The position numbers were made by a program, and so were the translations under genes. Shown piece after piece: positions 23,939 through 26,589 of a stretch of DNA of 64,000 nt. Positions within the stretch are counted from its first letter, which is position 1, and the number at the start of each line of letters is the position of its first letter. The notes beneath the pieces were generated by a model. It was not told where the DNA came from, searched no databases, and saw only the letters and a program-made list of their open reading frames with translations. The stretch is from Gaiellales bacterium (GTDB lineage: Bacteria > Actinomycetota > Thermoleophilia > Gaiellales > JAICJC01), in NCBI GenBank assembly GCA_036403155.1, contig DASWRM010000007.1, positions 62,001-126,000 on the forward strand. The letters run 5' to 3'.

Positions 23939-25093
23939 TCAGCGGATCGCCGCGACGGCCTCGAGGAAGCGGTCGATCTCCTCGACGGTCGTGTAATGCA
24001 CGGCACCGACACGTACCGCGCCACCGGCGGCCTCGAGCCCCAGCCGTTCCATCAGCTCGAGCGCGTAGTAGTTGCCATCCCAGACAAATATCCCCTGGCG
24101 CCCGAGCGTCGCCGCCACATCCGCCGGCGCATGGCCCTCGACCGTGAAGGCGACGGTCGGCACCCGCCGGTCGAGGTCGCGCGTGCCGTACTGCGTCACG
24201 CCGTCGATCCCGTCCAGCCCCTCGATCAGGCGGGCCGTCAGCGTTCGTTCGTACGCGGTGATCGCCTCGGCCCCCATCGCGACCATGTAGCGCGCCGCTG
24301 CGGCGGTGCCCGCGATCCCTTCCAGGTTCACGGTGCCCGTCTCCCACGAGCCGGGCGGCTCGTCGTGCGCGGGGCGCACCTTGTACGGGCGGATCCGCTC
24401 GAGCAGCTCCGCGCGTCCGTAGAGCACGCCGACGTGCGGGCCGAAGAACTTGTAGGCCGAGCAGGCGAGGAAGTCGCACCCGAGCGCGCGTACGTCCGTC
24501 GGCCCGTGCGGCGCGTACTGGACGGCATCGACGTAGGAGATCGCGCCCGCCGCGCGCGCCATCCGGCACATCGCGGCGGCGTCCGAGATCGTTCCCGCTC
24601 CGTTGGATGCCCAGTTGAAGGCGGCGATCCGCGTCCGGTCGGACAGCGCCTGCGTGAAGTCGTCAAGGTCGATCAGGCACGTCTCCGGATCGACGTCAAC
24701 GTGCCGCACGGTCAGCCCGCGGTCCTCGGCGGCCAGGAGCCACGGTGCCACGTTGCCGTCGTGGTCGACGCGCGTGACGATGATCTCGTCGCCCGGCTGC
24801 AGGCCGCGCGTCAGCGCCCGCGATGCGTGGAACGTGAGCGTGGTCATGTTGGCCCCGAAGACGACCTCGCCCGGGCTCGACCCCAGCATCGCCGCGACGT
24901 CGGCGCGTGCCCCGGCCAGCACCTGGTCGGACAGCTGCGAGGTCTCGAACGACCCGCCGAGGTTCGCGTTCGCCTGGAGGTAGTAGTCGCGGATCGCCTC
25001 GATCACCGACCCGTGCACCTGGGTGCCGCCCGGGTTGTCCAGGTAGATCCGCCCAGGCCGCAGCGACGGGAACTGGTCCCGAACCGCCTGCAC
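23939..25093 (-). CDS. Class V aminotransferase / cysteine desulfurase-like protein
   Basis: The 384-residue PLP enzyme has YLDNPGGTQ near the N-terminus, ASNGAGTISD, YVDAVQYAPHG (cofactor aspartate region) and the Schiff-base lysine in SAYKFFGPHVG near residue 215. It resembles the cysteine desulfurase-like subgroup, in which the exact reaction is often unknown; no SUF or ISC genes are nearby. GTG at 25093 is the first usual start, but family-like residues continue upstream to ATC at 25120-25118, which lies 6 bases after a TAGACT hexamer. Confidence 0.88.
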   Translation of the reverse strand: MQAVRDQFPSLRPGRIYLDNPGGTQVHGSVIEAIRDYYLQANANLGGSFETSQLSDQVLAGARADVAAMLGSSPGEVVFGANMTTLTFHASRALTRGLQPGDEIIVTRVDHDGNVAPWLLAAEDRGLTVRHVDVDPETCLIDLDDFTQALSDRTRIAAFNWASNGAGTISDAAAMCRMARAAGAISYVDAVQYAPHGPTDVRALGCDFLACSAYKFFGPHVGVLYGRAELLERIRPYKVRPAHDEPPGSWETGTVNLEGIAGTAAAARYMVAMGAEAITAYERTLTARLIEGLDGIDGVTQYGTRDLDRRVPTVAFTVEGHAPADVAATLGRQGIFVWDGNYYALELMERLGLEAAGGAVRVGAVHYTTVEEIDRFLEAVAAIR

Positions 25094-25185
25094 GTCGAAG
25101 CTGGTCGCCGTCGCGCCGATGCGGACAGTCTAGAGGGTGCCGCCACGTCGCCGGGACATGGGATCGACCATCTAGGATCTTCGGC

Positions 25186-26589
25186 ATGAGACTCGCCATC
25201 CTCGGCGGCGGCCCCGCGGGCTATGCCGCCGCCACGGCCGCCGCGCACCTCGGCGCGGAGGTGACGCTGATCGAGGACAACCAGCTCGGCGGCAACTGCA
25301 CGATGACGGATGCGATCCCGTCGAAGACGCTGCTGACGACCGCCGATGCCATGCAGAAGATCACGCAGGCGGAGGAGGAGGGCGTCGACTTCGCGCGCGG
25401 GTTCCCGGAGGTCAACCTCCGCCGCACGCTGGCCCGGGCCCGCGCCGTGGCGCTCCACCAGAGCCGCGGCGTCCGCGAGCGCATGGACGGGATGAACGTG
25501 CGCGTCCTCCCCGGCCACGGCGTCGTCACCGGCGCGAACAGCCTGATCGCGCACGTCGAGGACCAGCGGATCGAGGTGCCGTGGGACGCGCTGCTGGTCT
25601 GCACGGGTGCCTCGCCGTTCGTGCCGCCGTTCACCCGCCCCGACGCGCGCCGGGTGCTCACGACCCGGCAGGTGTTCGAGCTGCGCGCGCTCCCCGAGCA
25701 CCTGCTGGTGCTCGGCGCCGGACCGACCGGCTGCGAGTTCGCTGACTTCTTCTCGCGCTGCGGGTCGCGCGTCACGCTGATCTCGGCCCGGGACCAGATC
25801 CTTCCCAACGACGACGCGGACCTGGCCGAGGTGCTCGAGGAGGTGTTTCTCAACCGTGGGATGGACGTGATCAAGAACGGCCGCGCGGCAGCCGTGGACA
25901 CGGAGGAGAGCAGCTGCGTCCGGCTGGTGCTCGAGGACGGCCGCGAGCTGGACGGATCGCACCTACTGCTCTGCATCGGCATGCGGCCGAACACGACCGA
26001 GCTCGGCCTCGAGAACGCCGGCGTCACGCTGGGCGAGCGGGGCTCGCTGGCGATCGACGAGTTCTGCCGCACGAACGTCGAGAACGTCTACGCGTGCGGC
26101 GACGTCACGGGCCAGATCATGCTCGCCAACACCGCCGCGATGCACGGGCGCACCGCCGCCATGCATGCGCTCGGCGTGCATGTCGACCCCGTCAGCTACA
26201 CCGGCGTTGCGTGGTGCGTGTTCACCCGGCCCGAGATCGCCAAGGCGGGCATCTCCGAGCGGCAGGCGCGCATCGACGGCACGCCGGTCAGCATCACCAA
26301 GCACCTGATCCGCGCAAACCCGCGCGCGGTCATGGAGAGCGAGACGGACGGGCTGATCAAGCTGCTGTCCGACCCCGACGACGGCACGGTGCTCGGCGGG
26401 GCCATGGTCGGCCTGCGCGCGTCGGAGGTGATCACGACGGTCGCTCTCGCGGTGCACGCCAAGCTGAACGTCCAGGCGCTGGCCGAGACGGCTGCGGTCA
26501 ACCCGTCGATGTCCGAGAGCCTGCAGCGCACGGCCGAGAAGGCCGCCGAGGGCATGCTCGGCGTCTCGCGGGTCACGCTGTCGAGCTGA
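25186..26589 (+). CDS. LpdA-like flavoprotein disulfide reductase homologue lacking the redox disulfide (probable NAD(P)H-quinone reductase)
   Basis: The 467-residue protein has FAD motif ILGGGPAGYAAA, NAD motif LGAGPTGCEFADFF, and YACGDVTG. The active-site segment reads GGNCTMTDAIPSK: Cys38 is present, but the second position of the CxxxxC pair is Ala43. The usual C-terminal HPTLSE-type motif reads VNPSMSE, so the catalytic histidine is Asn. It therefore cannot be an ordinary dihydrolipoamide dehydrogenase. Mycobacterial LpdA (Rv3303c) is a similar non-lipoamide member with quinone reductase activity. TAGGAT stands 7 bases before the ATG. Confidence 0.88.
   Translation: MRLAILGGGPAGYAAATAAAHLGAEVTLIEDNQLGGNCTMTDAIPSKTLLTTADAMQKITQAEEEGVDFARGFPEVNLRRTLARARAVALHQSRGVRERMDGMNVRVLPGHGVVTGANSLIAHVEDQRIEVPWDALLVCTGASPFVPPFTRPDARRVLTTRQVFELRALPEHLLVLGAGPTGCEFADFFSRCGSRVTLISARDQILPNDDADLAEVLEEVFLNRGMDVIKNGRAAAVDTEESSCVRLVLEDGRELDGSHLLLCIGMRPNTTELGLENAGVTLGERGSLAIDEFCRTNVENVYACGDVTGQIMLANTAAMHGRTAAMHALGVHVDPVSYTGVAWCVFTRPEIAKAGISERQARIDGTPVSITKHLIRANPRAVMESETDGLIKLLSDPDDGTVLGGAMVGLRASEVITTVALAVHAKLNVQALAETAAVNPSMSESLQRTAEKAAEGMLGVSRVTLSS

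Follow-up and report, generated by a model that had tools for sequence, protein, structure and literature searches.

Probable Initiation at a Conserved ATC Codon in an Apparently Leaderless Aminotransferase-Fold Gene

A class V aminotransferase-fold gene on the minus strand of the window (the whole stretch of 64,000 nucleotides of Gaiellales DNA analyzed here) has no canonical start codon at the position orthologous to the starts of its relatives, a state that is conserved in evolution. To judge from sequence and conservation, the gene very probably starts at an ATC codon and, somewhat less certainly, this ATC is also the first codon of a leaderless mRNA. Near-cognate initiation on the AUC by the initiator fMet-tRNA appears to be the best explanation of the locus (probability of about 0.77). 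The genome that contains the window (G000) is a draft assembly of 3.22 Mb in 79 contigs, and it was compared within a set of five family genomes comprising two of its own, uncultured actinobacterial genus (G000 and G001) and three of a sister genus (G002, G003, and G004). The features of the locus are the following:

23939–25120, minus strand: class V aminotransferase-fold gene (TIGR01976, "cysteine desulfurase-like"), 393 codons plus TGA
25118–25120, minus strand: proposed start codon ATC and predicted 5′ end of the mRNA; ATC in G001, aligned ATG in G002, G003, and G004
25121–25126, minus strand: spacer GTCCGC, 6 bases from the hexamer to codon 1
25127–25132, minus strand: -10 hexamer TAGACT; same hexamer at loci L007, L008, and L009, TACGAT at L010
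25091–25093, minus strand: GTG, first canonical in-frame codon and rival start; not conserved
25173–25178, plus strand: -10 hexamer TAGGAT of the divergent oxidoreductase gene
25186–26589, plus strand: divergent FAD/NAD-type oxidoreductase gene (MRLAILGGGPAGYAAA...), TAGGAT-7-ATG with leaderless spacing; function assigned by eye from sequence

Organization of the Locus

The minus strand of the window reads CCCTC-TAGACT-GTCCGC-ATC-GGC-GCG-ACG-GCG-ACC-AGC-TTC-GAC-GTG-CAG, which confirms the claim of the initial annotation that the ATC (25120–25118) lies exactly 6 bases past TAGACT. Since the TAG of this hexamer (25132–25130) is an in-frame stop for the aminotransferase-fold gene, translation must start at or after ACT GTC CGC ATC. 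The locus shows two marks of leaderless genes: TANNNT is found 6–7 bases 5′ of the codon (here TAGACT plus 6, an arrangement kept in four relatives and in line with the leaderless class of the genome), and inspection of the 5′ region revealed no Shine-Dalgarno sequence before the ATC. The third mark, ATG or GTG as the 5′-terminal codon, is replaced by ATC in both genomes of the genus.

Two in-frame ATGs of the window lie further upstream, at codons -12 and -16, in a short frame (25170–25130) that ends exactly at the TAG of TAGACT. They were rejected as starts because they are closed by this stop and are absent in G001, and the short frame is probably a product of chance inside a spacer of about 42 bp that G001 lacks.

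The divergent oxidoreductase gene was confirmed next to the aminotransferase-fold gene in four of the five family genomes; the fifth is L010, where the divergent start reads ATGAAGCTC (read from sequence). At four loci of the family (L007, L008, L009, and L010) a mere 22–24 bp separate the divergent starts, and the opposing -10 hexamers overlap each other (ATCGTAGACT or AGTTTACGAT), forming a very compact bidirectional promoter. The intergenic gap of G001 is just 23 bp; in the window 65 bp (25121–25185) lie between the divergent starts and the hexamers are separate.

Identity of the Enzyme

The encoded protein matches the TIGR01976 model (am_tr_V_VC1184) over its full length (model positions 1–401) with 448.7 bits against a curated cut-off of 352.35, and was assigned to this family, from which the gene differs in its start codon only. 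Pfam Aminotran_5 also matches the protein, and the PLP lysine motif SAYKFFGPH is present. The catalytic cysteine in the GHHCA loop that marks SufS/CsdA is not found, GNYYA being at the aligned place, and the score against the SufS model is far below the SufS cut-off. The nearest solved structure, the FGM3 aminotransferase-like protein (9x4u), likewise has no cysteine at the SufS catalytic place. The GNYYA loop together with this structural neighbor suggests that the "cysteine desulfurase-like" enzyme likely performs a PLP reaction other than that of cysteine desulfurases.

Conservation of the ATC in Relatives

The aminotransferase-fold gene is present in all five family genomes. The G001 ortholog encodes a protein 84% identical to that of the window, a level that makes G000 and G001 different species, and it can be aligned from residue 1. 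Its start region reads CGTAGACTGTCGGC-ATC-GGC-GCC-ACA-GCT-GCC-ACC-TTC-GAC-GTC, so that TAGACT-N6-ATC is identical in hexamer, spacing, and codon in both genomes of the genus, the two on which conservation of the ATC within the genus rests. At the place of the GTG at 25093, G001 has GTC. Between its hexamer and codon 25 (75 bases from the proposed start) there is no ATG, GTG, or TTG in any frame, and not until codon 35, within the conserved domain, does a canonical start appear in frame.

The initial annotation had also described the nine codons before the GTG as family-like and had suggested an alignment of homologs to see whether residue 1 is Met in relatives. The first point is borne out by the TIGR01976 match, which begins at residue 8 counted from the ATC (that of Pfam Aminotran_5 begins only at residue 25), and by the alignment of the G001 ortholog from residue 1. 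Regarding the second, residue 1 is Met encoded by ATG in all three sister-genus genomes, and G000 and G001 both have ATC as this codon; with the hexamer kept in G001 as well, the suggestion that the gene may begin at ATC is strongly supported, short of proof. Codons 1–9 differ between G000 and G001 by three synonymous and two non-synonymous changes (pS 0.43 and pN 0.10, from five changes only), values close to those of the whole gene (pS 0.41 and pN 0.10; dS 0.60 and dN 0.11), and the same substitution pattern is found over codons 1–34. Within these small counts, the comparison of the two genomes shows what looks like coding constraint across the first codons.

In the sister genus the start region is TAGACT-N7-ATG in G004 and G002 and TACGAT-N6-ATG in G003, and this ATG is exactly the same codon in a gapless alignment, eight codons before a conserved Asp. 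Among the 30 best orthologs in the order, most have TANNNT 6–8 bases before their ATG or GTG, which falls at aligned codon 0, 3, or 4; others, a minority, show a Shine-Dalgarno-like stretch or neither signal, and the likely starts of relatives fall at aligned codons 0 to 7. The leaderless ATG or GTG in most orthologs of the order, together with the ATG of the sister genus, suggests that the ancestral start was probably a leaderless ATG or GTG and that the ATC is a derived, genus-specific replacement.

Frequency of Leaderless Spacing in the Genome

Leaderless spacing, scored as TANNNT lying 6 or 7 bases before the codon, was surveyed in 2.15 of the 3.22 Mb of G000, where 1,928 coding frames were called by codon usage. 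It precedes 146 ATG, 101 GTG, 1 TTG, 1 ATC, and 1 ATT codons, which agrees with the earlier claim that the spacing at the ATC equals that of leaderless ATG and GTG genes. About 13% of the genes (247 of 1,928) thus look leaderless, and they use ATG and GTG almost exclusively. The single ATC match is the aminotransferase-fold gene and the single ATT match is gyrB. As a background, 238 of 65,227 in-frame codons that lie near gene starts without being starts (0.36%) have TANNNT 6 or 7 bases before them; given this background against the restriction of the spacing to ATG and GTG, and its conservation in the sister species, the spacing between TANNNT and the ATC is not due to chance. The hexamer TAGACT itself is rare (74 sites on both strands). 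Searches of the whole G000 and G001 genomes for TAGACT-N6/7-ATC returned two sites each, among which only the aminotransferase-fold pair heads a coding frame and only this pair is shared; the second sites were rejected, that at L121 by a stop two codons later and that at L124 because it heads no coding frame.

TTG is nearly absent from the leaderless position (1 vs. 247 ATG or GTG), in keeping, in a distant class of actinobacteria, with what holds for mycobacteria. It is avoided at this position even in a lineage whose gyrB and infC appear to be leadered genes with TTG starts. By this token the ribosome of G000 looks as strict on leaderless codons as that of mycobacteria, which counts against the ATC reading.

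The ATT of gyrB (G000:C7:60699) was rejected as a leaderless start because a TTG six codons downstream is conserved (ATG in relatives) and the hexamer is not, a rejection that serves as a useful negative control for the comparison method. No ATG is found near the start of gyrB (G000:C7 near 60699, minus strand; L165–L168), whose likely start is TTG, with ATG in some relatives; in the family a conserved leader (ATTTCAAGCGGGTTT and variants) stands in front of it and a TGGTAGACT-type promoter about 20–30 bases further upstream. infC (L277–L281) seems to start at a TTG with no in-frame ATG nearby in five family genomes; with this TTG conserved in five of five, the idea that infC reveals a loosened start choice throughout the genus was rejected.

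Among the tRNAs in the part of G000 that was read, none combines initiator-like features with an Ile anticodon; there is one ordinary tRNA-Ile(GAT), and a CAT tRNA has the GGG/CCC initiator-type anticodon stem. A predicted selenocysteine tRNA gene with the anticodon TCA is located at G000:C74:10131–10224, and the organism may make selenoproteins.

Proposed Mechanism and Alternative Explanations

In the preferred reading, transcription from the TAGACT promoter would place the 5′ end of the mRNA at, or within about a base of, the A of the ATC. The ribosome would bind this end and initiate directly on the 5′-terminal AUC with fMet-tRNA, whose CAU anticodon would tolerate a mismatch at the third codon position, so that fMet would be the first residue. 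The change of ATG to ATC would have occurred in the ancestor of the genus and been retained since, the sister genus keeping ATG. Expression is likely to be below that from an ATG. The Met is probably removed, given that Gly follows it in G000 as in G001, leaving GATATSFDVQAVR as the mature N-terminus.

The ATC could also be the start of an mRNA with a short leader, transcribed from a few to tens of bases upstream, in a case of ordinary rare near-cognate initiation without a Shine-Dalgarno sequence. AUC counts among the rare start codons of bacteria in general (PMC9094748), and in Mycobacterium smegmatis the ATC used as a negative control was weakly active (0.2% of reads), and then only if a leader with a Shine-Dalgarno sequence preceded it (PMC4633059). 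Such a leader is improbable given that no Shine-Dalgarno sequence precedes the codon, that the conserved distance between hexamer and codon equals exactly that of leaderless genes, and that the intergenic space of G001 would leave only 23 bp. Translation from the GTG at 25093 (residue 10), with the first nine codons as an untranslated leader, is a still weaker candidate. In the open frame of the window the first canonical start is this GTG, and it precedes the Pfam domain, which starts only at residue 25. Already named as an alternative in the initial annotation, it is not conserved, since the sister species has GTC and offers no substitute start before codon 35; it too lacks a Shine-Dalgarno sequence, the family model reaches upstream of it, codons 1–9 vary like coding sequence, and the likely starts of relatives lie ahead of it.

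Decay of the gene in the genus, in which loss of the ATG would have ended efficient translation and left only trace or internal initiation, would agree with the very weak activity expected of a leaderless AUC (PMC4633059). It has little probability, as both species have an intact gene, purifying selection acts on it (dN 0.11, dS 0.60), and the promoter hexamer is kept. The least credible alternative is an error of sequencing or assembly at 25118–25120 that hides a true ATG; the window does come from a draft assembly of 79 contigs, but the identical ATC in the independent genome of another species excludes this explanation, which the initial annotation had also raised. Initiation on a leaderless AUC is thus left as the preferred reading. 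It seems likely that a natural AUC has been kept at the 5′ end of a leaderless mRNA, that leaderless initiation admits more than AUG and GUG, and that the codon perhaps holds the level of one enzyme low.

Relation to Known Systems

A ribosome on a leaderless mRNA has almost no signal other than the start codon. Only ATG and GTG initiate leaderless mRNAs in M. smegmatis, where CTG and TTG fail (PMC4633059), and in Escherichia coli non-AUG codons are much less efficient on such mRNAs, although GUG does better in certain other species (PMC9031893). The open-access literature searched yielded no description of a leaderless AUC start occurring in nature. If true, the conserved ATC at the head of a leaderless mRNA would be an exception, arisen in nature, to the ATG/GTG-only rule of mycobacteria; either such a start would be aided by other sequences or factors, or weak starts would be tolerated or favored by selection. 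Gene finders will misplace starts of this kind; the shift here is nine residues for one species, 34 for the other.

Leaderless genes of Actinobacteria are marked by TANNNT about 12 bp upstream (PMC3160421), and the aminotransferase-fold gene shares with them the -10 hexamer, the spacing, and the lack of a Shine-Dalgarno sequence, its orthologs also looking leaderless (PMC3160421; PMC4633059). It differs in codon 1, which is ATC in place of the ATG or GTG that are the only functional codons in mycobacteria. Rare near-cognate starts (AUU, AUC, or AUA) are known from leadered genes, as in the AUU starts of infC and pcnB in E. coli. These have a leader, whereas the ATC described here has no Shine-Dalgarno sequence and apparently no leader; in both cases the AU is kept, the third base is changed, and the start is probably weak.
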